64,000 nucleotides of DNA from contig NZ_QAOW01000010.1 of NCBI RefSeq assembly GCF_003051005.1, forward strand, positions 1 to 64,000, read 5' to 3'. Of the stretch, positions 5,119 to 16,619 are shown one piece after another; position 1 is the stretch's first letter, and each line of letters opens with the position of its first letter. This DNA comes from Rhodococcus sp. OK519 (GTDB taxonomy: Bacteria > Actinomycetota > Actinomycetes > Mycobacteriales > Mycobacteriaceae). Under the pieces are notes generated by a model, which saw only the letters and a list, made by a program, of their open reading frames with translations, did no database searches and was not told where the DNA came from. Position numbers and translations under genes: made by a program.

Positions 5119-5748
5119 TCAGCGATGTGCGGATGCGACCCAGCCGTTGAACAGGAAGTCGACGAACTCGTCGGCGAGTTTGATGCCGTCCACGTCGGGG
5201 TCGCCGTCACACGTGTAGTTCGAGTTCAGAACGGAGCGGAATGCGACGGCGGCGAGCGCCACGTCCATGTCCCGGAACGTGCCGTCGTCGACGCCTGCCC
5301 TGATGATCCGCTCCACCGCGTCGGCCCACCGTTGGCGCTTGACCTGGACCTCGGCGAGTTGGGCGCCGTTGAGCCGCATCCATTCCCGCTCGAACACCTT
5401 CGCGGCATCCGGGTTGGCCATGGACCAGCGCAGATGGATGCGGGCGAGCATGCGGAGCTTGTCGATCGCGCCGACGTCCGATGCCTCGACCCGCAGGAGT
5501 GCGGCCTCGCCACTCTCCGCAATCTCGCCGACGATCTGGTAGAGCAGGTCTTCCTTGCTCTTGATGTGCACGTAGAGGCTGCCGGCATGCACGCCGACGA
5601 GGGAGCCGATGTCCCGCATCGACGTCCCGTCATACCCGCTCTCGGCGAATCGTCGAACGGCCGCCTCGCGAATCTTCGTCAGAAACGCGGACTTGGCGTC
5701 GTCGGACGGTCGATCGTTCGTTGGCTTCCGATCGAGTTTCGACGGCAT
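5119..5748 (-). CDS. TetR-family repressor, candidate master regulator of the 4353-16619 catabolic cluster
   Basis: The 209-residue product has a TetR N-terminal DNA-binding domain at about residues 20-70 (IREAAVRRFAESGYDGTSMRDI, then GVHAGSLYVHIKSKEDLL). A C-terminal ligand domain resembles those of actinobacterial repressors that sense acyl-CoA-type ligands. ATG 5748 fits the AAGGG site, whereas the upstream ATGs give an Arg-rich tail. Directly upstream, at 5836-5851, is a copy of the 16-bp motif also present before the divergent gene pair at 6970/7242 and before the amidohydrolase gene at 14069. Autoregulation and control of the cluster are inferred from this pattern. The inducer is unknown, with a CoA thioester of the substrate most likely. 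Confidence 0.88.
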   Translation of the reverse strand: MPSKLDRKPTNDRPSDDAKSAFLTKIREAAVRRFAESGYDGTSMRDIGSLVGVHAGSLYVHIKSKEDLLYQIVGEIAESGEAALLRVEASDVGAIDKLRMLARIHLRWSMANPDAAKVFEREWMRLNGAQLAEVQVKRQRWADAVERIIRAGVDDGTFRDMDVALAAVAFRSVLNSNYTCDGDPDVDGIKLADEFVDFLFNGWVASAHR

Positions 5749-5835
5749 GTTCACGGCCCTTCTGCGACGCGGCAGCGCGCGAACGCCCGCTGGTTCCAAA
5801 GCTTCGGTCATCATGGCAGGAGAACCGCACTACCA

Positions 5836-5851
5836 GCAACAAGCGTTTGCT
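5836..5851. promoter_or_regulatory. Cluster operator copy 1, upstream of the tetR gene
   Basis: GCAACAAGCGTTTGCT is a near-palindrome. It shares 13 of 16 identical positions with the copies at 7131-7146 and 14028-14043. It lies 88 bp upstream of the TetR start, so it fits autorepression. Confidence 0.65.
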
Positions 5852-5872: not shown

Positions 5873-6970
5873 TCAGTGGATCGTGTCGACCGCGTCGACG
5901 AGGCCCCAGTCGAGTGCGGTGCCGACGTCGAGGCGCGCGCCGGTCACGAACAGGTGCATCGCGCGCCACCGCCCGATCCGCCGCGGAATGCTTGCCGTCC
6001 CACCTGCTCCCGGGATCAAACCCATCTCGACCTCGGGTAGTCGGAACCACGCGTCCGGGCTCGCCACCACGCGTCCCGCGAACGCCGGAATCTCGATTCC
6101 ACCACCGACACAGGCTCCGTGAACGCGAACTTCGATCCGCCCGGCCAGTGCGTGGACGAGGAGCCCCGCCCCGCCGCGGGTGCGGATCAGATGTGCCAGC
6201 GCGAGATCGGGCGTGGTGCCGAACTCGTCGAGATCGCCGCCGGCGCAAAAAGACGGTCCGGCACCGTCGAGCACGACGCGGGAGACGGACGGATCCGATG
6301 TCGCGACGATCAACGCGCTGGTGAGAGCGTCGCGTAGTCGGGCTCCGTAGGCATTCCGGCGTTCCGGGCGGTTCAGCGTCACCCAGAGCTCGTCACCGTC
6401 GCGAACTGTCAGGACCGGGTCGTCGGTGGGTGTCGGAGGCAGTGGTCGGGGTCCGCGATGCGCGAGCCAGCGCGCGAACTCGGGTCCACCGAGCAGCGTG
6501 GAGTAGGCCAGCGATTCGACGTCCATGGCTGCGGGCACGTCGAGGCCGTTACCGGCCCGGACAACCTGCCGCAGGACGACGGAGGCCTGCGGATTCGCGC
6601 CGACGCGGGCCGCGAAAGCCGTGACAGCGTCGTCCGGATCGGGGGCGTGGACGACCGAGCGGTGGGCGTTCCGGCCGAGGTCGGGGTCGTCGGTGTACGT
6701 CACGTCGAGCGACTGTGTGATTGCGGTCAGTCCGCCGCCTTCGCCGACTGGGCGAGGGCCTCGGTGAACTCCGAGGAGGATCCGGTCGGCCTGGTGCGCG
6801 CGCCGGGCCGCGGCTGCGAGTACTTCGGGGTCGTCGACTCCGTCGGAGCCCGGGGTCAGGTCGACGACCATCAGGGGCGTGTCGATCGCGGCGCCGTCGT
6901 CGAGTAACGGCGCATCGGCGATGCCGTCGGCGAGTTGGCGGGCCGTGATGTGTGGTGCGTGGGAGTCCAT
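5873..6970 (-). CDS. Enoyl-CoA hydratase/isomerase family protein with an N-terminal extension
   Basis: The 365-residue product starts at an ATG behind GAGG. The C-terminal half (about 185-365) is a normal crotonase domain: VTLNRPERRNAYG, the oxyanion-hole segment FCAGGDLDEFG, VHGACVGGGIEIPAF, and LPEVEMGLIPGAGGT with a Glu in the usual catalytic place. The first about 180 residues are unusual for the family. They contain RILLGVHRG and an Ala/Asp-rich stretch, and could be a degenerate crotonase copy or a partner-binding domain. It would hydrate or isomerise an enoyl-CoA in the pathway encoded by the divergent genes. It is divergent from the 7242 gene and upstream of tetR. Confidence 0.85.
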   Translation of the reverse strand: MDSHAPHITARQLADGIADAPLLDDGAAIDTPLMVVDLTPGSDGVDDPEVLAAAARRAHQADRILLGVHRGPRPVGEGGGLTAITQSLDVTYTDDPDLGRNAHRSVVHAPDPDDAVTAFAARVGANPQASVVLRQVVRAGNGLDVPAAMDVESLAYSTLLGGPEFARWLAHRGPRPLPPTPTDDPVLTVRDGDELWVTLNRPERRNAYGARLRDALTSALIVATSDPSVSRVVLDGAGPSFCAGGDLDEFGTTPDLALAHLIRTRGGAGLLVHALAGRIEVRVHGACVGGGIEIPAFAGRVVASPDAWFRLPEVEMGLIPGAGGTASIPRRIGRWRAMHLFVTGARLDVGTALDWGLVDAVDTIH

Positions 6971-7130: not shown

Positions 7131-7146
7131 GCAACAAACGTTTGCT
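7131..7146. promoter_or_regulatory. Cluster operator copy 2, in the divergent 6970/7242 promoter region
   Basis: GCAACAAACGTTTGCT contains the perfect 10-bp palindrome CAAACGTTTG. Its place between the divergent crotonase gene and the plus-strand operon, 96 bp before the 7242 start, suits control of the main operon. Confidence 0.7.
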
Positions 7147-7241: not shown

Positions 7242-7538
7242 ATGCAGTTGCGTGTCGGAGCCAGATTGCGAAGCACCACGTCAGCGGCCGAACTGATCGT
7301 GATCCGGGTACCCGGTGGCGACGTCGACATCTGTTGTGACGGCGCACCGATGGTCGCCCCGGAGCAGGCCGGCGATCCCTCGGGTGGCACGAGCGGGGAA
7401 CTCCAGCTCGGCAAGCGTTACAGCAACGCAGAGGGCACCGTCGAGTTGCTCTGCACCAAGCCCGGATCCGGTGTCCTCACCGCAGACGGAGAACCGCTGG
7501 GTGTCAAGGCGCCCAAAGCGATGCCCGCATCCGACTGA
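7242..7538 (+). CDS. Small conserved-looking protein, first gene of the catabolic operon
   Basis: The 98-residue product begins at an ATG with AAGGAG 8 nt upstream. It has no signal peptide or membrane segment. It reads as a compact beta-rich protein with IVIRVPGGDVDICCDGAPM, ELQLGKRYSNAEGTVELLC and a Lys/Ala-rich end. The Cys pair and single later Cys could bind metal, but no known motif is visible. I do not recognise the family. The gene stops 8 bp before the CoA ligase start, so it is certainly cotranscribed with it, and it is the first gene after the operator at 7131. A role as an accessory or carrier subunit of the pathway is possible but unsupported. Confidence 0.8.
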   Translation: MQLRVGARLRSTTSAAELIVIRVPGGDVDICCDGAPMVAPEQAGDPSGGTSGELQLGKRYSNAEGTVELLCTKPGSGVLTADGEPLGVKAPKAMPASD

Positions 7539-7546
7539 GGAGCCAG

Positions 7547-9049
7547 ATGAACATCCTGACCCTTCTCGAGATCGCCGCCGGCGCGGACGGCGACCGAGTT
7601 GCCATCGGCGACAAGCACGACGGCCTCACCTACGCCCGCTTGCTCGAACTGGCGGGCGCGTTCGCGGCCGGCCGCACGGATGCCGCCGAGCAGACAGTCT
7701 TGTACGGATCGACGGCCTCTCCGGCTTTCCCGATCGCGCTGTTCGGTTCGGCGTGGAGCGGAGTCCCCTTCGCGCCGATCAGCTATCGACTCGCCGACGA
7801 ACCCCTGCGCCGACTCGTCGAAGGGCGGGCGCCCGCCCTCCTCGTCGCCGACGGCACCGTCGCCGACATCGGCGCGCAGGTGGACGGTGTCGAGACCGTG
7901 GGCCCGGTGGCGCTGGTCGAGAACCTCTGCGCCGCTCCCACTGTCGAGATCGCGCCCGCGGAGCAGGATCCCGAGGCGCCGGCGGTCCTGCTGCACACCA
8001 GCGGCACCACCGGCACGCCCAAGGTAGCGGTCCTGCGCCACCGGCATCTGGTCTCGTACGTCCTCGGTGGCACCGAACTGTTCAGCGCAGGACCTGACGA
8101 GGCCGCCCTCGTCAGCGTGCCCCCGTACCACATCGCGGGCGTTGCGGGACTGCTGACAGGTCTCTACAGCGGCCGTCGGATCGTGCAGATGCCGAACTTC
8201 GACGAGCGGGAGTGGGTCCGCCTCGTGCGCGAACAGGGGATCACCCACGCGATGGTCGTGCCGACGATGCTCGCCCGCATCGTGGATGTGCTGGCCGAGG
8301 ACGGGCGCGGTCTGCCCTCGCTGCGCCACCTCTCCTACGGCGGCGGCCGCATGCCGTTGCCTGTCATCGAGAGGGCTCTGGAACTGCTGCCGGAGGTCGC
8401 CTTCGTCAACGGCTACGGACTGACCGAAACTTCCTCGTCCATCGCCGTTCTCGGACCCGCGGAGCATCGTGCCGCCGTCGAGGCTGTCGATCCGGTGATC
8501 CGGCGGAGGCTGGGATCGGTGGGCCTGCCCGTTCCCGATGTCGAGATCGTCGTTCGTGACGATGATGGGCTCGCCGTCCCGGCCGGGGAACGCGGCGAAC
8601 TGTGGGTGCGCGGCGCGCAGGTGTCGGGGGAGTACGCCGGAGTCTCGATGCTCGATGCCGACGGTTGGTTCCGGACCAAGGACGGAGGCTGGATCGACGA
8701 CGAGGGCTACGTCTTCGTGGAAGGACGCCTCGACGACGTCATCGTCCGCGGCGGCGAGAACTTGTCGCCCGGCGAGATCGAAGACGTGATCGGCGAGCAC
8801 CCGCACGTCGAGGACGTCGTCGTCTACGGCGTCCCCGACGACCAGTGGGGTGAGGTCGTCGTCGCGGCCGTCGTGCCGCGGGCGGACGGAGCGGTCGACG
8901 CCGCCGAGATCCAGGCATGGGTGGGCGGCAGACTCCGGTCGTCTCGGGTACCGGCGCACGTCGAGTTCCGGACGGCCCTGCCCCGCACCGACCTCGGCAA
9001 GGTGCTGCGCCGCGTGCTGCGCGAGCAGTTCGTCCCCGTCACCGCCTGA
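7547..9049 (+). CDS. Acyl-CoA synthetase (AMP-binding family)
   Basis: The 500-residue product belongs to the ANL superfamily. The phosphate loop is LLHTSGTTGTPK at about residue 147, NGYGLTETSS forms the A5 region, and the hinge is GRLDDVIVRGGENLSPGEIE. The catalytic lysine lies in RTDLGKVLRR near the C-terminus. It should activate a carboxylic acid to its CoA thioester with ATP, most likely the entry step of this pathway. It starts behind TGAGGAG, 8 bp after the small gene. The substrate-binding region does not single out fatty, aromatic or terpenoid acids. Confidence 0.92.
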   Translation: MNILTLLEIAAGADGDRVAIGDKHDGLTYARLLELAGAFAAGRTDAAEQTVLYGSTASPAFPIALFGSAWSGVPFAPISYRLADEPLRRLVEGRAPALLVADGTVADIGAQVDGVETVGPVALVENLCAAPTVEIAPAEQDPEAPAVLLHTSGTTGTPKVAVLRHRHLVSYVLGGTELFSAGPDEAALVSVPPYHIAGVAGLLTGLYSGRRIVQMPNFDEREWVRLVREQGITHAMVVPTMLARIVDVLAEDGRGLPSLRHLSYGGGRMPLPVIERALELLPEVAFVNGYGLTETSSSIAVLGPAEHRAAVEAVDPVIRRRLGSVGLPVPDVEIVVRDDDGLAVPAGERGELWVRGAQVSGEYAGVSMLDADGWFRTKDGGWIDDEGYVFVEGRLDDVIVRGGENLSPGEIEDVIGEHPHVEDVVVYGVPDDQWGEVVVAAVVPRADGAVDAAEIQAWVGGRLRSSRVPAHVEFRTALPRTDLGKVLRRVLREQFVPVTA

Positions 9050-9078
9050 CGACCCCCCAGCGATCGAAAGGATCCACA

Positions 9079-11454
9079 GTGCAACAGCAGGATGTGCTGC
9101 TTCGGGATTTCCGCGTGGTCGACTTCTCCACGGGTATCGCAGGTTCCTACTGCACCAAGATGCTGGTGGACGCGGGCGCGGATGTCGTCAAGGTAGAGAC
9201 CGGCGCCGACGGTGACCCGTTGCGGTGCTGGCGACAGAGCGGCGACACCGGCCCCGGCGACGGTGCCCTGTTCCAGTACCTGGCGGCAGGAAAGCGATCG
9301 ATCCGCGGTTCGTTGCGCGACAGCCGCGTTCGCGAATTCGTCGCCGGCGCCGACCTCGTGGTCGAGTCCGGTGAATTGACTACGGATGACATCGAATTCG
9401 TCCGCCGGACAACCCCCGGCGTGGACATCTTGTCGGTCACCCCGTTCGGACGCACCGGACCGTGGGCCCACCTGCCGGCCACCGACTTCACTCTCCAGGC
9501 ACTCGCGGGTTCGATGGCCATTCGCGGACCGGAGGGCCGGGAACCGCTACAGGCCGGAGGACGCCTCGGCGAGTGGATCGCCGGATCGTTCGCGGCAGCC
9601 ACCGCGCTGGGCCTGCGGGTCGGGGCCGCCGGCCGCGGACGCGGCGGCGAGTGGGCGGATCTGTCGATGCTCGAATCCATGGGCGTCGCAATGGCTCTCT
9701 ATCATCCCGTGACAGCCGTGTTGTCGGGTGCGCCCGGACGGCGCACGCCTCGGACGGTGGAGATCCCGTCGATCGAGCACGGTCTCGACGGCTATGTCGG
9801 CTTCTGCACGATCACCGCGCAGATGTTCGAGGACTTCCTGATCATGATCGACCGTGCCGACCTGCTCGCGGACGACTCGATCGTCGACGTGCGCAGGCGC
9901 CAGGAACGCTACGCCGAGTTCAAGTCGACGATCGAATCCTGGACCACGTCGATGCCGGTCGAGGCGATCGACGAGATTGCCAGTGCCATGCGGATTCCCG
10001 TCGCTCCGATCGGGACACCCGAGACGGTCACGCAGAACATGCACTTCGCCGAGCGCGGGGTGTTCGTCGAAAACCCCGCGGGCTTCGTCCAGCCCCGGCG
10101 GCCGTACCTGGTCGACGGCGCACTGCCCGATCCCGTCCGCGCCGCCCCGTCGCTCGGCGAACACGACAGCGATCGGCCGTGGAATCCGCGCACGCAACCC
10201 TCACGCACGCTCGACGAGACGGACGACGCACCCCTGGCCGGGGTCCGGGTCCTCGACCTGACCGCATTCTGGGCGGGTCCTGCTGCGACCCAACTGCTCG
10301 CGGGAATGGGCGCCGAGGTCATCAAGGTCGAGTCCGTGCAGCGTCCCGACGGGATGCGCTTCACCTCGACCAGATCGCCGGGCGAACCCGATTGGTGGGA
10401 GGCAGGTGGCGTCTATCAGGGTGCCAACGCGGGCAAACTCGGTGTGACACTGGACCTGAGTAGGCCCGAGGGTGTGGATGTGTTGCTCGAGATGATTCGC
10501 AACTCCGACATCGTCATCGAGAACTTCTCGCCCCGAGTCCTCGACAACTTCGGCCTCACCTGGGAGCGGATTCACGAGGCGAACCCCGCCGCGGTGTTCG
10601 TCCGGATGCCCGCGTTCGGGCTGTCGGGCCCCTGGCGGGACCGCACCGGATTCGCGCAGACGATGGAACAGGCCACCGGGCTGTCGTGGATGACGGGCTA
10701 CCGCGACGGCAGCCCGATGGTCCTCAAGGGCCCGTGCGATCCCGTCGCCGGACTGCACGCCGTGGTCGCGACGCTCTCGGCGCTCGAACTTGCGCGATCC
10801 CGCGGCCGGGGCTGCTTCGTCGAGGTGCCCATGGTGGAAAGCGCGCTCAACGTGGCCGCCGAGATGGTGATCGAACACAGCGCCTACGGCAACGCCCTGT
10901 CCCGGGACGGAAATCGCGGCCCGATCGGAGCCCCGCAGGGTGTGTACCGGTGCGCGGGCGAGGAGAACTGGCTGGCGGTCGCGGTCACCGACGACGCCCG
11001 ATGGGAGGCCGCGTGCGACGTTCTGGGTTTTCCGGACTCCGTGCTCGAACCCGAGTTCGCTTCCGCGAACGGTCGTCGTCGCCACCACGATCGCCTCGAC
11101 GAACTGCTCACCGAGTTCTGCGCGGCCCGTGACGTCGATGAGCTCGAGGGGGCACTGACCTCGCGGGGCATCGCGGCCGCCCGCGTCGTCGACCCGAGCC
11201 GGATCCTCGACAACCCGCAGGTGCGGGCCCGCGGTTTCCCGGAGAAGCTCGACCACCCGGTCCTCGGCACATTCGAGATCCCGGGCCTCCCTGTGGTGTT
11301 CGCCTCGCACTCCGGACCGGCCTTCACCGTGCCGGCGCCCCTGCTCGGCCAGCACAACGCCGAGGTGCTCACCGCACTGGCCGGGGTGGACCCGGAGCGT
11401 CTCGTGCAGCTTTCCGATGCCGACGTGATCGGCCATCGCCCCCTTCATCTTTGA
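9079..11454 (+). CDS. Duplicated class III CoA-transferase (tandem CaiB/BaiF domains)
   Basis: The 791-residue product starts at a GTG behind AAAGGA, and the frame upstream of it overlaps the ligase. It holds two complete CaiB/BaiF copies. Copy 1 (about 1-380) starts VVDFSTGIAGSYCTKMLVDA and has DVVKVE. Copy 2 (about 390-791) starts VRVLDLTAFWAGPAATQLLA and has EVIKVES, IVIENFSPRVLDNFGL and VEVPMVESA. Family III transferases move CoA between carboxylic acids without a ping-pong free-CoA step, usually as interlocked homodimers, and a covalent tandem could replace the dimer. Single-domain members are about 400 residues. Here it may recycle CoA from a product to the incoming acid, complementing the ligase. 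Confidence 0.9.
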   Translation: MQQQDVLLRDFRVVDFSTGIAGSYCTKMLVDAGADVVKVETGADGDPLRCWRQSGDTGPGDGALFQYLAAGKRSIRGSLRDSRVREFVAGADLVVESGELTTDDIEFVRRTTPGVDILSVTPFGRTGPWAHLPATDFTLQALAGSMAIRGPEGREPLQAGGRLGEWIAGSFAAATALGLRVGAAGRGRGGEWADLSMLESMGVAMALYHPVTAVLSGAPGRRTPRTVEIPSIEHGLDGYVGFCTITAQMFEDFLIMIDRADLLADDSIVDVRRRQERYAEFKSTIESWTTSMPVEAIDEIASAMRIPVAPIGTPETVTQNMHFAERGVFVENPAGFVQPRRPYLVDGALPDPVRAAPSLGEHDSDRPWNPRTQPSRTLDETDDAPLAGVRVLDLTAFWAGPAATQLLAGMGAEVIKVESVQRPDGMRFTSTRSPGEPDWWEAGGVYQGANAGKLGVTLDLSRPEGVDVLLEMIRNSDIVIENFSPRVLDNFGLTWERIHEANPAAVFVRMPAFGLSGPWRDRTGFAQTMEQATGLSWMTGYRDGSPMVLKGPCDPVAGLHAVVATLSALELARSRGRGCFVEVPMVESALNVAAEMVIEHSAYGNALSRDGNRGPIGAPQGVYRCAGEENWLAVAVTDDARWEAACDVLGFPDSVLEPEFASANGRRRHHDRLDELLTEFCAARDVDELEGALTSRGIAAARVVDPSRILDNPQVRARGFPEKLDHPVLGTFEIPGLPVVFASHSGPAFTVPAPLLGQHNAEVLTALAGVDPERLVQLSDADVIGHRPLHL

Positions 11455-11474
11455 TCCTGACAGGAGTACTCGAT

Positions 11475-12641
11475 GTGAGCGCACATCCCTTTCGCGACGT
11501 GGTGATCGTCGCGGCCTACAACACCGAGCAGGCGCGGGTGTTGGAGGGCCACGACAGTTTCACGATCAGCCTCGATGCCGCACGCGGCGCCATTGCCGAG
11601 TCCGGTATCGACCCGACCACGATCGACGGCGTGTACAGCAAGACTGCGCCGCAGCTCATCTACTCGCTGGGCCTGGGCCCGGTCTGGAACGCGAACAACC
11701 CGGGCGGCATCACCGGCGTCCTGCACGCGGCGAGTGTCGTTGCCGCAGGACTGTGCGAGACCGTGCTCGTCGCCGACGGCGAGGCCGGCCGCTACACCGA
11801 ACGTGAATCCACCGCACCGTGGACGCGACCGTCCAACGAGTTCGTCGCCCCGTTCGGCCTCTACACGGCTTCGGAGTTCGCGCTCATCGCCCGACGACAC
11901 ATGCACCAGCACGGCACGACACCGGAACAGATGGCATCGGTGGCCGCCCGGATCCGCAACAACGGCAACATCAATCCGGACGCGATCTACTACGGGCGTG
12001 GCCCGTTCACCGTCGAGGACATCCTGGCCTCGCGCATGATCGCGGATCCGTTCCACCTGCTCGACTGCGCCATGACGTCCGAGGGCGGCTGCGCGCTCAT
12101 CATCACCACTGCCGAGCGTGCGAAGGATCTACCCGGCAAGCCCGTCTACGTTCTCGGCGGCGGACTGGACCACATGGGGCCGTCGTACCAGCACGCACCG
12201 AGCTGGGACCTCGGGAGCCGGTCCTCCGACATCCCCAACGGCTACGTCGGTCGTCGGGCGGCGCGTAAGTCGTTCGCGATGGCCGGACTGCAGCCTGCCG
12301 ATGTGGACGTGGCCGAGCTCTACGATCCGTTCTCGTTCGAGATCATCAGGCAGTTCGAGGCTTTCGAGTTCTGTGGCGACGGCGACGGCGGCGAGTGGGT
12401 TGTCGAGAACGTCGCCGGCGACGATCCGAAACTCCCGATGACCACCGATGGCGGCTTGATGTCGTACAGCCACGGCGGTGGGATCGTGCAGCTGACTCAG
12501 CGCATCGCGCGGGGTGTGCACCAACTCCAAGGCGTGTGCGAGACCAACCAGGTGAACGACGCCGAGGTGGTGCTGTGCAGCAACGGCGGCGCCGGCGCCT
12601 TCTTCACCGACGTCCTGCTACTGGGAAGTGAGCGACCATGA
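11475..12641 (+). CDS. Thiolase-fold lipid-transfer-type protein without the nucleophilic Cys (Ltp2-like retro-aldolase candidate)
   Basis: The 388-residue product has the SCP2-thiolase fold: IDGVYSK, GGITGVLHAASVVAAGL, MTSEGGCALII, DVAELYDPFSFEI and MSYSHGGGIVQL. Where thiolases carry the nucleophilic Cys (N-x-C-x-S-G), this has the stretch GVLHAAS with no Cys, so normal thiolysis looks unlikely. Known Ltp2-type proteins lack this Cys and, with a DUF35 partner, split beta-hydroxyacyl-CoA side chains by retro-aldol chemistry. The very next gene encodes a DUF35 protein with a 4-bp overlap. GTG 11475 was chosen for AGGAG 8 nt upstream; a TTG 24 bp earlier is the alternative. Confidence 0.85.
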   Translation: MSAHPFRDVVIVAAYNTEQARVLEGHDSFTISLDAARGAIAESGIDPTTIDGVYSKTAPQLIYSLGLGPVWNANNPGGITGVLHAASVVAAGLCETVLVADGEAGRYTERESTAPWTRPSNEFVAPFGLYTASEFALIARRHMHQHGTTPEQMASVAARIRNNGNINPDAIYYGRGPFTVEDILASRMIADPFHLLDCAMTSEGGCALIITTAERAKDLPGKPVYVLGGGLDHMGPSYQHAPSWDLGSRSSDIPNGYVGRRAARKSFAMAGLQPADVDVAELYDPFSFEIIRQFEAFEFCGDGDGGEWVVENVAGDDPKLPMTTDGGLMSYSHGGGIVQLTQRIARGVHQLQGVCETNQVNDAEVVLCSNGGAGAFFTDVLLLGSERP

Positions 12642-13090
12642 GCGAGCACACGATCGTCACCGTGCTGGGCCCGCAGCGGGCCGGGATCCCGCTGCCGACC
12701 CCCACCGTGCTGTCCCGGCCGTTCTGGGAGGGTTGCGCCGAGGGAGAGCTGCGCTATCAGCGCTGCACCGCCTGCGGCCGTGCCGAATTCGACCCCAACA
12801 TGCTCTGCCGCGGGTGCGGTTCGGATGACCTCGAGTGGCAGGTCAGCGCCGGCCGCGGCACCGTCTACAGCTACACCGAGGTCACGCGACCGCAGACGCC
12901 GGCGTTCACCAGTCCGTACGTCGTGGTGATCGTCGAACTGGACGAGGGCTACCACATGGTGTCCAACATCGTCGGCTGCACGACCGCCGATGTGCGGATC
13001 GGGATGCCGGTCGCCGTCGAGTTCCACGAGATCGACGGTGGCGTCGTCCTCCCGTACTTCGCCCCGACGGCCGGCGGGGTGAACCCGTGA
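12638..13090 (+). CDS. Zinc-ribbon/OB-fold DUF35 protein, partner of the thiolase-fold protein
   Basis: The 150-residue product has an N-terminal helix, then a rubredoxin-like zinc ribbon formed by CTAC and CRGC (about residues 45-67), and an OB-fold with GTVYSYTEV, YVVVIVELDEG and RIGMPVAVEF. DUF35 proteins bind acyl-CoA thioesters and pair with thiolase-fold or dehydratase enzymes, as in the ChsH2/Ltp2 complex of steroid side-chain cleavage. The ATG overlaps the end of the preceding gene (ATGA), a strong sign of stoichiometric coupling. It is very probably the second subunit of that enzyme. Confidence 0.92.
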   Translation: MSEHTIVTVLGPQRAGIPLPTPTVLSRPFWEGCAEGELRYQRCTACGRAEFDPNMLCRGCGSDDLEWQVSAGRGTVYSYTEVTRPQTPAFTSPYVVVIVELDEGYHMVSNIVGCTTADVRIGMPVAVEFHEIDGGVVLPYFAPTAGGVNP

Positions 13091-13980
13091 GCGCCGACGC
13101 GACTCCGCATGTCGCCGTGGTCACCGGCGCGAGTCGCGGCATCGGACGTGCGATCGCCCGCCGATTCGCTGCGGACGGCATCCACGTCCTGGCGGTCTCG
13201 CGTTCGCTGCGGGCCGGCGACGGACGCCTGCAGGGTTCGCTCGAGGAGACGGTCGCGCAGATCGCCGCGGACGGCGGCGCCGCTGCCCCGCTCGTGTTCG
13301 ACCTCGGTGACCCGTCCGCGGACCGTGCATCGGTGATCGCGCACGCCGAACAGACCTTCGGTGCGCCCGTGGACATCCTCGTCAACAACGCCGCGGCGAC
13401 CCGCCGATTCGATCAGTTGTACGGCGAGATGACGCGCGAGTCCTTCTACGACTCGGTGGAGACGAACGTCTGGGCCGGCTGGGATCTCGCCACCGCGGCG
13501 GTGCCCGGCATGCGCAGTCGCGGCGCCGGGTGGATCCTGAGCATCTCGTCGACTCAGGCCGGCCCGCGCAAGGGGCCGCCGTTCGCGCCGAACTCGACCT
13601 TCGGCGCCTGCCTGTACGGCGGCACGAAGGCGATGATCGACCGCATCACGACCGGCGCGGCCATGGATCTGTACGACGACAACATCGCGGTGAACACCTT
13701 GGCACCGGAGTATTCGATCGCGACCGAGAACGCGCTGACCGTGCCGGGCGTCACCACGAACAATTCCGAACCGGAGGAAACCATCGCGGAGGCCGCGTTG
13801 GCGCTGTGTACCGGGGACCCCAAGGCGCTGACCGGAAAGATCACGCGCAACCTCGGCCTGCTCGTCGAGCTGAATCGCCCGGTCCGCACGCTCGACGGTA
13901 CGTCGCTCGTTCCCGGGTGGCAGCCCGCGGACATCGACACGACGCGGATTCGGCCGGGATACCTCTCCGCCGTCATCTGA
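13087..13980 (+). CDS. Short-chain dehydrogenase/reductase
   Basis: The 297-residue product starts at a GTG overlapping the previous stop (GTGA). The cofactor loop is VTGASRGIGRAIA, with NNAA at strand 4, Ser in SISSTQ and Tyr-Lys in LYGGTKAM. It is somewhat longer than classical SDRs, with a 40-residue C-terminal tail after the Rossmann fold. It probably oxidises the hydroxy intermediate or reduces the aldehyde/ketone released by the aldolase-like pair just upstream, but that is inferred only from gene order. Confidence 0.87.
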   Translation: MSADATPHVAVVTGASRGIGRAIARRFAADGIHVLAVSRSLRAGDGRLQGSLEETVAQIAADGGAAAPLVFDLGDPSADRASVIAHAEQTFGAPVDILVNNAAATRRFDQLYGEMTRESFYDSVETNVWAGWDLATAAVPGMRSRGAGWILSISSTQAGPRKGPPFAPNSTFGACLYGGTKAMIDRITTGAAMDLYDDNIAVNTLAPEYSIATENALTVPGVTTNNSEPEETIAEAALALCTGDPKALTGKITRNLGLLVELNRPVRTLDGTSLVPGWQPADIDTTRIRPGYLSAVI

Positions 13981-14027
13981 CGTGGCGGACTCCGCGCACG
14001 ATTTCGCGGATACCCGCCCCATTCTTT

Positions 14028-14043
14028 GCAACAATCGTTTGTT
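14028..14043. promoter_or_regulatory. Cluster operator copy 3, upstream of the amidohydrolase gene
   Basis: GCAACAATCGTTTGTT matches copies 1 and 2 and ends 25 bp before the start codon at 14069. It marks a second promoter inside the long plus-strand series, so the amidohydrolase-dehydrogenase part can be regulated by the same repressor. Confidence 0.65.
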
Positions 14044-14068
14044 ACAGACTTTTACAGGAGGCACGTCA

Positions 14069-15232
14069 ATGCCACTCCAGCCGTGGATGAAGCTCGTCTC
14101 GGTCGATGACCACCTCATCGAGCACCCCACTGTGTGGGCCGACCGTCTGCCCACCAAATTCCTCGAGGCCGGCCCCCGCATCGTCGAGGAGCCTTCGCCG
14201 TCGGGTGGTGCGCCCATGCAGGTCTGGAACTACCAGGGCCGCCGTTTCCCCGCGATCGGGCTCAACGCGGTAGCGGGTAAGAATCCCGAGGACTTCGGGA
14301 TGGAACCGGTCCGCTACTCCGACATGATCCCGGGTTGCTACGACCCCAAGGCTCGACTGGCCGACATGGACCTCGACGGCGTGTGGGCACAGACCTGCTT
14401 CCCGTCGTTCCCGCGCTTCGCCGGGGCACTGTTCACCGTCGAGAGCAAGGACATGGAGCTGGCGCTGCTGAGCGTCAAGGCTTACAACGACTACGTCCTC
14501 GACGAGTGGTGCGCGGCCGCGCCCGACCGGTTCATCCCGGTGATCATCCTGCCGCTGTGGGACATCGCGGAATGCGTCGAGGAGATTCAGCGCACTGCCG
14601 CGAAGGGCGCCAAGGGCATCACCTTCCCGGAGGATCCGGTTCCGCTCGGGCTGCCGTCGTACTACACCGACCACTGGGACCCGGTCTTCGCCGCCGCCCA
14701 GGACACGGGCATGCCGCTGTGTATGCACTTCGGCTCCTCGGGTCGTCCGCCGGCGACCGCGGAGGAGGCCCCGTACGCGGTGACCATCTCGCTGTACGCG
14801 ACCAACATGATGTCCTCGACCTCGCACCTGCTGTTCTCGCCGGTGTTCCACAAGTTCCCGGGCCTCAAGGTGGCGCTGTCCGAGGGCAACATCGGTTGGG
14901 TGCCTTACATGCTCGAGCGGATCGACGCGGTTTGGGAGCGTCATCGTCACTACCAGAACGTCGTTCAGGATGTGGTGCCGTCGACGCTGTGGTTCAAGAA
15001 TATGTACGGCTGCTTCATCGACGACGACTTCGGCCTGAAGAACCGGCATGTCGTCGGCCTCGACAACATCACCTGGGAGTGCGACTACCCGCACTCGGAC
15101 TCCTACTGGCCCAACAGTCGCAAGCATGCCGAGTTCCGTTTCCAGGACGTGCCGGACGACGAGGTCGTCAAGATCGTCGAGACCAACGCCCGCCGACTGT
15201 TCAACTTCCACGACGACGGTGGGAAGGCGTGA
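14069..15232 (+). CDS. Amidohydrolase-2 family (ACMSD-like) metal-dependent hydrolase or decarboxylase
   Basis: The 387-residue product begins at an ATG behind AGGAGG. It has the amidohydrolase-2 pattern: SVDDHLIE in place of the N-terminal metal motif, LCMHFGSSG for the next His, LSEGNIGW, and ECDYPHSDS with the late Asp. Members hydrolyse or decarboxylate ring acids, or act on lactones and amides, so the reaction is open. Its own operator copy and promoter precede it, and it overlaps the next small gene by 4 bp (GTGA), showing a second coupled sub-operon. It may act on the ring-opened or core product of the pathway. Confidence 0.88.
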   Translation: MPLQPWMKLVSVDDHLIEHPTVWADRLPTKFLEAGPRIVEEPSPSGGAPMQVWNYQGRRFPAIGLNAVAGKNPEDFGMEPVRYSDMIPGCYDPKARLADMDLDGVWAQTCFPSFPRFAGALFTVESKDMELALLSVKAYNDYVLDEWCAAAPDRFIPVIILPLWDIAECVEEIQRTAAKGAKGITFPEDPVPLGLPSYYTDHWDPVFAAAQDTGMPLCMHFGSSGRPPATAEEAPYAVTISLYATNMMSSTSHLLFSPVFHKFPGLKVALSEGNIGWVPYMLERIDAVWERHRHYQNVVQDVVPSTLWFKNMYGCFIDDDFGLKNRHVVGLDNITWECDYPHSDSYWPNSRKHAEFRFQDVPDDEVVKIVETNARRLFNFHDDGGKA

Positions 15233-15498
15233 CCTCGCCCGATAAGTTCGGCTGGCAGCAACCCCCGATCACGCCGATGACGGCGGAGGAGCGGATCGAG
15301 GCCGACGACTGGGTCGAGCAGGACCTGCTCACCCGGGACCTGGCCGCCGAGCGCCTCGACGCCGTCGTCGCGCAGGCGACCGCGGAACTCGACCATCTCG
15401 AAAAGGTGGATGCCGATCCGGCGGCGATCGAGTTGGTACGCAAACGGATCACAGCGGCCGAGGCGTCCCGCCGCTACGTGGAGGAGGGCCGGAAGTGA
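15229..15498 (+). CDS. Small charged hypothetical protein between the amidohydrolase and MDR genes
   Basis: The 89-residue product starts at a GTG that overlaps the previous stop by 4 bp and ends overlapping the next start by 4 bp, so it is a real, translationally coupled gene. It begins SPDKFGWQQPPITPMTAEER and continues as a mostly helical, strongly acidic and charged chain (ADDWVEQDLLTRDLAAERLD, then LVRKRITAAEASRRYVEEG). No Cys, signal peptide or known domain is visible. Helical amphipathic spacing suggests a small subunit or chaperone for one of its neighbours. I do not recognise the family. Confidence 0.78.
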   Translation: MTSPDKFGWQQPPITPMTAEERIEADDWVEQDLLTRDLAAERLDAVVAQATAELDHLEKVDADPAAIELVRKRITAAEASRRYVEEGRK

Positions 15499-16619
15499 CG
15501 ATCACGGCAACAGCACTGGTGCAGACCGGTCCGCGCGAGGTGCGGTTCGAGGAGATTCCGATTCCGGCCCTGGAGTCCGGCGCAGCACTGCTGCGGGTGG
15601 AGGCCAACGGCCTGTGCGCCAGCGACATCGACTCCTGGGAAGGCAAGCACTCGGCGTACGCGCCGGGCGTCTCGCCGTTCCCACGGATCAACGGACACGA
15701 GATCGTCGGCATCATCGAGGACATCGGCGGGGGAGTGCGTGCGGACGGGGTTCGCGTCGGCGACCGGGTCGCCGTCAACCCGTTCCTCTCGTGCGGCCGG
15801 TGCGAGGGCTGCCGCGAGGGAGCGACGATTCGCTGCACGGGGTTCCCGTTCCGGCCGAACGCTTACGGCTACATCCAGACCGGGCACGCGCCGTCGCTCT
15901 GGGGCGGTTACTCGACGCACGTCTACATCCATCCGAATGCGATCCTGCACCCGTTCCCGGAGACGACCGACCCGCTCGACGCGACGCTGTGGAATCCCCT
16001 GGCGGCCGGCATCGAATGGGCGGTCACCACTCCCGGCACCACTATCGGGACCACGTTCGCGGTGCTCGGGTGCGGTCAGCGCGGTCTGGCAGCGGTGGTG
16101 GCGGCGAAGGCTGCCGGTGCCGACGTGGTCCTCGCGACCGGGCTGGCGCGGGATCGGCACAAGTTGGACCTGGCCACCGAGTTCGGTGCCGATGTGGTGG
16201 TGGACGTCGAGACCGAGGATCTGCGCGAGGCGGCGCGGCAAGCGACAGGTGGACGCGGCTTCGACGTCGTGCTCGATACGTCCCCGCATGCGACCGGGCC
16301 GATCCTCGATGCGCTCGACATCGTGCGCAGCGGAGGGACCGTGGTGTCCGCGGGGCTCAAGACCCGGCCGATCGAGAACTTCCCGATCGACCTGTTGACG
16401 CTCAAGAACATTCGCCTGGTCGGGTGCGCGGGCTCGAGCGTCCGGTCCTACCAGCAGGCCGCGAGTATCGTCGCGTCGGGCCGATTTCCGCTCAGTCGCA
16501 TGCGGACCCATGTGCTCGGGTTCGACCGCCTCGAGTACGGCATCGAGTTGCTCCGGGGCGACCACCCGCAGGAGCGCCCGATCAACATCGTGATCACCCC
16601 GACCCTGAGCGGAATCTGA
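15495..16619 (+). CDS. Zinc-dependent medium-chain alcohol dehydrogenase (MDR family)
   Basis: The 374-residue product starts at a GTG overlapping the previous stop. The catalytic zinc site is visible as NGLCASD and NGHEIVG. The structural-zinc loop has CGRCEGC plus a later Cys in TIRC. The Rossmann part carries VLGCGQRGLAAV and then ADVVVDVETED. Such enzymes oxidise alcohols or threonine/sorbitol-type polyols with NAD(P). As last gene of the cluster, it ends before the nested hairpin at 16634-16701. In the pathway it might oxidise a released alcohol or aldehyde. Confidence 0.9.
   Translation: MTITATALVQTGPREVRFEEIPIPALESGAALLRVEANGLCASDIDSWEGKHSAYAPGVSPFPRINGHEIVGIIEDIGGGVRADGVRVGDRVAVNPFLSCGRCEGCREGATIRCTGFPFRPNAYGYIQTGHAPSLWGGYSTHVYIHPNAILHPFPETTDPLDATLWNPLAAGIEWAVTTPGTTIGTTFAVLGCGQRGLAAVVAAKAAGADVVLATGLARDRHKLDLATEFGADVVVDVETEDLREAARQATGGRGFDVVLDTSPHATGPILDALDIVRSGGTVVSAGLKTRPIENFPIDLLTLKNIRLVGCAGSSVRSYQQAASIVASGRFPLSRMRTHVLGFDRLEYGIELLRGDHPQERPINIVITPTLSGI

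Follow-up and report, generated by a model that had tools for sequence, protein, structure and literature searches.

Two retro-aldolases of the thiolase fold that work with a DUF35 partner are closest to the system described here, namely the steroid side-chain aldolase Ltp2 with ChsH2 (Protein Data Bank (PDB) 6ok1) and the bile acid aldolase Sal with Shy (9myr). In both systems, DUF35-associated MaoC-type hydratases make the beta-hydroxyacyl-coenzyme A (CoA) (PMC11321319). Ltp2 uses Tyr294 as base and Tyr344 as acid, Sal uses Tyr302 as base and Cys304 as acid, and Tyr344 of Ltp2 corresponds to Gln352 of Sal; the DUF35 protein of Sal forms a fusion with a hydratase, its zinc site being of the Cys3His type (PMC12329534). 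We here describe a related gene pair in a stretch of 64,000 nucleotides (the window) from contig NZ_QAOW01000010.1 of Rhodococcus sp. OK519, a relative of Rhodococcus equi. Judged from sequence, its thiolase-fold protein and DUF35 partner likely form a retro-aldolase, which is the best-supported class, and we hold it rather probable that they would carry out the last step in a series of CoA activation, O2-dependent beta-hydroxylation and retro-aldol cleavage.

The thiolase-fold protein is encoded by an open reading frame of 388 codons that runs from a GTG at 11475 to a stop ending at 12641 and shares the 4 bp ATGA with the DUF35 gene starting at ATG 12638. Pfam detects Thiolase_C_1 in the first product and zf-ChsH2 together with OB_ChsH2_C in the second (12638-13090), which is a stand-alone protein. 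The reading frames, the overlap and the domains thus agree with the first-pass annotation, which had described a thiolase-fold gene without cysteine overlapping a DUF35 gene by 4 bp. The zinc ribbon of the DUF35 protein (Cys43-x2-Cys46-x10-Cys57-x2-Cys60) has the same cysteine spacing as that stated for TcChsH2 (PMC12329534). The closest named homologues of the thiolase-fold protein are from Prescottella (95-96% identity), one of them recorded as Rhodococcus hoagii.

Alignment with classical thiolases of the same genome and with SCP2 thiolases places their nucleophilic cysteine at Asn75, a result obtained with hhalign, with MAFFT and with a HMMER alignment to SCP2 thiolase. The motif GVLHAAS, in which the lost cysteine had originally been sought, comprises residues 81-87, just past this position, and all three alignments rule it out as the nucleophile site. 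The CxS loop that carries the nucleophilic cysteine in SCP2 and classical thiolases therefore has Asn75 in its place, and the loop that reads NEAF or HDxF in those enzymes and in BbsB reads YDPF, Tyr283 standing at the Asn of NEAF. The histidine of the thiolase GHP motif corresponds to His333 and the cysteine of the CxG motif to Cys368. The pairings of Asn75 and Tyr283 were obtained with both hhalign and MAFFT; those of His333 and Cys368 came out together with MAFFT alone, and hhalign supports each in a separate run: the local run ended at residue 286, the global run over the C-terminal part matched His333 to the GHP histidine without recovering the CxG strand, and after realignment Cys368 was matched to the CxG cysteine but the GHP loop was missed.

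The Ltp-type enzymes used for comparison were Ltp2 by name and the three YDHF homologues of the same genome. Of the two catalytic tyrosines of Ltp2, the base Tyr294 is kept as Tyr283, but the acid Tyr344 is replaced by His333, which aligns without gaps with both Tyr344 of Ltp2 and Gln352 of Sal. Pro285 takes the place of His296 in Ltp2 and of the acid Cys304 in Sal (YDCY). The predicted active site is thus neither of the Ltp2 type (Tyr/Tyr) nor of the Sal type (Tyr/Cys).

Conservation was assessed in two sets of homologues. Set A comprises 26 unique proteins including the query, with at least 48% identity, from whole-genome searches that used no sequence patterns. Set B comprises 81 sequences, the query and the best 80 of 170 homologues, found with two patterns; since one of these contained YDP, set B is biased for Tyr283. 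A cysteine at position 75 is absent from all 81 sequences of set B, all 26 of set A and all ten more distant relatives, and in set A the position holds Ala, Asn, Leu, Thr, Ser or Arg. Cysteines nearby, at position 70, five residues earlier, in 8/81 of set B and three residues before the nucleophile position in L047, are not conserved. Tyr283, Asp284, Asp325 and His333 are invariant in both sets (26/26 and 81/81), and Cys368 is present in 25/26 and 72/81.

These patterns bear on two other readings of the protein. It could be a catalytically dead subunit with a scaffolding or binding role, as the loss of the classical nucleophile might suggest, but in an inactive pocket one would expect drift and not four invariant residues, and no second thiolase-family protein was present among the neighbouring proteins scanned; we regard this as very improbable. 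We also consider it improbable, though to a lesser degree, that the protein acts without the usual cysteine as a thiolase, an acyltransferase or a Claisen-type enzyme, for example by direct transfer or hydrolysis. Such an enzyme would account for the retention of the GHP histidine and the CxG cysteine, and DUF35 proteins also partner the BbsAB thiolase, archaeal acetoacetyl-CoA thiolase and the acyltransferase PhlABC (PMC12329534). Against it, the nucleophile position varies freely without ever being cysteine, both proven aldolases share the tyrosine at the NEAF/HDCF position, and the thiolases fall outside the clade of the protein.

This clade was seen in a maximum-likelihood tree of 61 rows of our own choosing, in which the PDB rows of Sal and BbsB are partial and for which a long-branch warning applies. 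The query family and relatives of 38-47% identity form a clade of 32 rows (100/100), which joins Sal and 4u4e at 87/83 with Ltp2 outside. The wider group with Ltp2 and Sal has 49 rows (100/98) and excludes the classical, SCP2 and BbsB thiolases. The earlier prediction of a likely retro-aldolase is strengthened by the missing nucleophile, the retained Tyr283 and this placement within the Ltp2/Sal group, all of them read from sequence. Ltp2 itself is 31% identical over 390 columns; it shares the thiolase fold, the absence of a nucleophilic cysteine, the tyrosine of YDxF and a DUF35 partner with a four-cysteine zinc site, and differs in Tyr344, in His296 and in its separate clade. Sal shares the fold, the tyrosine base, the DUF35 partner and the tree group. 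The best PDB sequence match is 4u4e, a 'putative thiolase' of Sphaerobacter thermophilus (33% identity over 335 columns), which likewise has a tyrosine (YDSF), a GHP-type histidine and no cysteine at the nucleophile position.

Several observations weigh against the assignment as an aldolase or against the roles proposed for individual residues. The AlphaFold2 model has a mean predicted local distance difference test score (pLDDT) of 84.7, which falls to about 65 around residues 321-340, the loop with His333. When superposed with VIA-align, where Z values within 1 count as tied, it matches Ltp2 (Z 43.5, root-mean-square deviation (rmsd) 2.7, 354 aligned), Sal (Z 42.5, rmsd 2.6, 360 aligned) and 4u4e (Z 42.4, rmsd 2.4, 348 aligned), but also the Pyrococcus thiolase 7yvy (Z 41.5, rmsd 2.4, 346 aligned) and the archaeal acetoacetyl-CoA thiolase (Z 41.2, rmsd 2.6, 354 aligned), so that the fold alone does not separate aldolase from thiolase; classical thiolases reach Z values of about 32-33. 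Cys368 is absent from 9/81 homologues of set B and therefore cannot be the general acid throughout. In the ten relatives of 38-47% identity, Tyr283 is present in all, His333 is Trp in seven and His in three, and Cys368 is found in none; the tyrosine is thus a wider feature, His and Cys being traits of the query subfamily. Two further proteins of the genome lie outside the aldolase group, L042 with YDLA and a cysteine at the nucleophile position and L045 with YVPF, and because of these the tyrosine by itself is not diagnostic. This suggests a cheap sequence rule with two halves, both of them needed: no cysteine in the CxS loop, and YDxF replacing NEAF/HDxF.

The proposed origin of the beta-hydroxyl group would set the locus apart from the described systems. 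The three YDHF-type Ltp2 homologues of the genome (on C3, C7 and C17) adjoin DUF35 genes and each has a MaoC match within a few kb, that on C3 just under the curated cut-off, but the window's contig has none of the genome's 15 MaoC matches. ChsH2 is part of a MaoC hydratase system, whereas here an oxygenase homologue of the PtmU3 kind is encoded nearby. The cluster is indeed unlike the canonical steroid side-chain genes, as first proposed, in that it lacks the MaoC genes of Ltp2 loci. For the same reason, and because the protein falls outside the Ltp2 clade, the designation as an 'Ltp2/ChsH2 arrangement' does not hold.

The neighbouring gene in question encodes a PF04909 'amidohydrolase'. Its best PDB matches are DitZ (8uyr, E value 2e-75; 34% identity) and then PtmU3 (6omp, E value 1.4e-33), and its model (pLDDT 87.3) superposes on DitZ with Z 45.9 (rmsd 2.6, 373 aligned) and on PtmU3 with Z 36.5 (rmsd 3.2, 349 aligned). 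The alignment shows every metal ligand expected of an amidohydrolase-related dinuclear oxygenase, namely Asp-x-His (Asp13, His15), His220, Glu272, Asp-x2-His (Asp339, His342) and an acidic residue two past the last histidine (Asp344); DitZ and PtmU3 have the same fold and the same metal-ligand letters, the N-terminal pair of PtmU3 lying outside the compared stretch. C-5, the carbon on which PtmU3 acts, is beta to the C-19 thioester, and the step prepares A-ring cleavage. PtmU3 has been described as hydroxylating C-5 of diterpenoid-CoA intermediates (PMC10127204); a platensimycin paper presents A-ring cleavage as chemical and does not mention PtmU3 (PMC10391625). Literature searches for DitZ by name gave nothing useful on its function. 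The ligand sets used here derive from AibH2 and LynB7, and the acidic residue is reported to be conserved only in dinuclear members (PMC7782822, PMC10127204). Since the ligand set is complete, hydrolase or decarboxylase is not favoured as a default label. The full set is present in 66 of 71 oxygenase homologues, found in 64 of 80 aldolase loci; among the five incomplete ones, the N-terminus is missing from two in the extracted sequence (one of them at a contig end) and the final acidic residue from three. The 89-aa protein encoded directly downstream (15229..15498) has a DW..DLLTR motif and no Pfam family and is possibly a partner of the oxygenase.

Association was counted in those 60 of the 80 loci that are flanked by 7 kb of DNA in either direction. 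Within this distance an oxygenase homologue is encoded in 52/60, a CoA-transferase in 53/60 and a DUF35 protein in 59/60 loci. As controls, 40 stretches of 15.2 kb were taken at even spacing from two genomes, starting past each genome's aldolase locus, and none contained an oxygenase homologue; of 16 other thiolase regions of the window genome, one did. The loci are related, many being from Mycobacterium, and are therefore not independent. Loss of Cys368 tracks absence of the oxygenase homologue (5/6 versus 3/54, Fisher p 6e-5; a post hoc comparison that amounts to about three lineages in the tree).

Similar combinations occur outside this family. Eight plasmids of Rhodococcus and Streptomyces encode oxygenase homologues with 63-67% identity. 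A natural DUF35-thiolase fusion is separated from the oxygenase gene by a single gene in R. rhodochrous pGD02.2.1 and strain BH4 and by about 11 kb in Streptomyces NBC_00080, and in all three a gene for a short protein follows the oxygenase gene; the two short proteins that were aligned share the DW..DLLTR motif with the 89-aa protein of the window. Both fusions that were scanned with Pfam, two of the three (L182:8101-9762 and L183:2658-4343), have an N-terminal DUF35 part followed by a YDGF thiolase-fold domain. A relative of the fusion thiolase lies no more than 11 kb from the oxygenase homologue in 10 of the 25 plasmid records listed (of 33).

Coupling of the putative oxygenase to the candidate aldolase is a good hypothesis, supported by gene order, metal ligands, apparent shared regulation and two precedents. 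It has to be weighed against the following observations. Eight of the 60 loci (L084, L086, L093, L095, L100, L128, L143 and L155) have no oxygenase homologue within 7 kb, two of which, L100 and L155, have one farther away. The one positive thiolase region among the controls is a YDHF Ltp2-type locus with MaoC genes, about 6 kb from which a PF04909 gene is found (G000 C7:137851-138714), so that the oxygenase homologue is not confined to loci of the query type. Members of PF04909 also include hydrolases, hydratases and carboxylases (PMC10811679), and the neighbouring proteins that were scanned included no recognisable ferredoxin.

The retro-aldolase might instead be fed by an acyl-CoA dehydrogenase and a crotonase, the PF04909 protein catalysing hydrolysis, decarboxylation or hydroxylation elsewhere. 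A crotonase-family gene is indeed present nearby on the opposite strand (5873-6970) and also in three Prescottella relatives, the PtmU3-like LynB7 has been described as an oxidative decarboxylase (PMC10127204), and in Massilia an oxygenase homologue is followed after 11 bp by a thiolase-family gene with MaoC genes at the same site; the eight loci without a neighbouring oxygenase homologue point the same way. A crotonase-like gene is, however, found within 7 kb of just 1/60 homologues, lying just past 7 kb in the three Prescottella, the contig has no MaoC match, and the entire dinuclear ligand set is kept in 66/71 oxygenase homologues. We consider this alternative unlikely. The product of 5873-6970 has an N-terminal extension of about 180 aa and a crotonase domain that ends early (profile 9-174 of 251); since R. 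rhodochrous L182:20862-21920 and the three Prescottella relatives share this early end, it appears to mark a genuine family rather than a frameshift.

In the sequence of reactions that we favour, the ligase or the fused CoA-transferase would convert a carboxylic acid to its CoA thioester, and the PF04909 protein, with a dinuclear metal centre and O2, would hydroxylate the carbon beta to the thioester. Tyr283 of the thiolase-fold/DUF35 complex would then take the proton of the beta-hydroxyl group, upon which the alpha-beta bond would break to give a ketone or aldehyde and a CoA enolate. His333 may stabilise the enolate, protonate it or both, and Cys368 is a possible proton donor. The short-chain dehydrogenase (SDR) and the zinc-dependent dehydrogenase could reduce or oxidise the carbonyl product; were the alpha-beta bond part of a ring, cleavage would open it. 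The analysis shows the anatomy of the locus, the predicted fold, the conserved residues, the clade, the co-localisation and the putative shared operators; from these we infer each reaction, that hydroxylation is at the beta position, what His333 and Cys368 do and the kind of substrate. In ibuprofen degradation, ibuprofen-CoA is formed by a CoA ligase, attacked by a dioxygenase and then split by a retro-aldolase giving propionyl-CoA (PMC9195938); an oxygenase can therefore feed such a retro-aldolase. IpfD/IpfE thus share with our proposal an oxygenated CoA ester and a thiolase-annotated retro-aldolase, but employ a dioxygenase system that yields a dihydrodiol (PMC9195938); by name, IpfD was not recognised among the 40 best or 60 spread entries of 344 matching plasmid records. 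BbsAB with benzylsuccinate CoA-transferase also combine a thiolase-fold/DUF35 pair and a two-part family III CoA-transferase. BbsB differs in having HDAF instead of YDPF and lies, as a partial row, outside the aldolase group, and the NCBIfam BbsB model gives the thiolase-fold protein 107 bits against a cut-off of 750. In contrast to PtmU3 and DitZ, the PF04909 protein of the window is encoded beside a thiolase-fold/DUF35 pair. No paper joining thiolase, DUF35, CoA transferase and amidohydrolase was found in a literature that covered few subscription journals.

One tentative idea, which we rate somewhat short of probable, is that a dinuclear oxygenase and a Tyr/His thiolase-fold aldolase with DUF35 form a widespread module that cuts carbon-carbon bonds with the help of O2 and differs from beta-oxidation. 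If true, bacteria could thereby break bonds at branched or ring carbons that are unable to form a ketone, and even open saturated rings; PtmU3-type diterpenoid pathways would gain a candidate partner for A-ring cleavage, and the aldolase would add a third placement of the proton donor to those known in the thiolase fold. Many database entries labelled 'acetyl-CoA acetyltransferase' or 'thiolase family protein' are possibly retro-aldolases, and oxygenases may be among the 'amidohydrolases' beside them. Should the pairing be real, two large and vaguely labelled families would gain one testable function, and branched and alicyclic acids a degradation route.

The cluster comprises eight genes on the forward strand (7547-16619), from the ligase through the zinc-dependent alcohol dehydrogenase, with the tetR gene on the opposite strand (Table 1). 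The N-terminal half of the CoA-transferase resembles chain A and its C-terminal half chain B of benzylsuccinate CoA-transferase 9fn0; its start at 9079 was picked by eye, the searches having begun from 9064. The TetR-family protein is likely the regulator of the cluster. The pattern GCAACAAnCGnTTGCT was drawn by eye from putative operators upstream of tetR and of the operon, one position being loosened on suspicion of a third site, which then matched with one mismatch upstream of the oxygenase gene. With up to two mismatches it has five matches in the window versus 0.18 expected, two of these being one site on both strands and one (63113) lying elsewhere. Genome-wide, with up to one mismatch, it has four matches, including the three sites, and since a reversed control pattern also gives three, it is the positions of the sites that count and not their number. 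All three recur (up to one mismatch) in the Prescottella relatives L078-L080 and are not present in Nocardia L081 or Trebonia L082.

Table 1. Features of the proposed retro-aldolase locus, with positions in the window.
Feature	Position	Strand	Remark
TetR-family regulator	5119..5814	-	
Putative operator GCAACAAGCGTTTGCT	5836..5851	+	5' of tetR gene
Putative operator GCAACAAACGTTTGCT	7131..7146	+	5' of ligase/CoA-transferase/aldolase operon
AMP-forming acyl-CoA ligase	7547..9049	+	
Fused double family III CoA-transferase	9079..11454	+	
Cys-less thiolase-fold protein, proposed retro-aldolase	11475..12641	+	388 aa
Asn75, lost nucleophile	codon 11697-11699	+	
Tyr283, proposed base	codon 12321-12323	+	YDPF
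His333, proposed oxyanion hole/acid	codon 12471-12473	+	
Cys368, possible acid	codon 12576-12578	+	
DUF35 partner	12638..13090	+	C4 zinc ribbon and OB fold
Short-chain dehydrogenase (SDR)	13087..13980	+	4-bp overlap with DUF35 gene
Putative operator GCAACAATCGTTTGTT	14028..14043	+	1 mismatch; 5' of oxygenase gene
PF04909 'amidohydrolase', proposed dinuclear-metal acyl-CoA beta-hydroxylase	14069..15232	+	PtmU3/DitZ kind
Small protein, 89 aa	15229..15498	+	directly 3' of oxygenase gene
Zinc-dependent alcohol dehydrogenase family protein	15495..16619	+	

An apparent fusion of oxygenase and CoA-transferase genes in the open reading frame maps of L129 and L137 was discarded, the long frame not being that of the oxygenase homologue. 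A further conserved protein, about 109 aa long (LCVPPR.GELCAPVRF...GTYLGVV..EN), is encoded at L103:9601-9930 and in 20 more loci, and in the mycobacterial ones its gene separates those of the CoA-transferase and the aldolase; its 21 copies have no motif of a Rieske or ferredoxin partner, as which it had been considered. Mycobacterial loci also encode, within a few kb of the query-type aldolase, a Sal-like thiolase-fold protein (YDCY in the copies printed; L098:1240-2448 and 19 other loci of the same protein cluster), which often has a DUF35 gene of its own, and two aldolase active sites may therefore share one neighbourhood. A small protein without Pfam family is encoded upstream of the CoA ligase gene of the window (7242-7538, forward strand), and its homologues adjoin the ligase in L099, L122 and L125. 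Finally, a KshA-like Rieske oxygenase (L081:6154-7578) is encoded a few kb from the Nocardia homologue.

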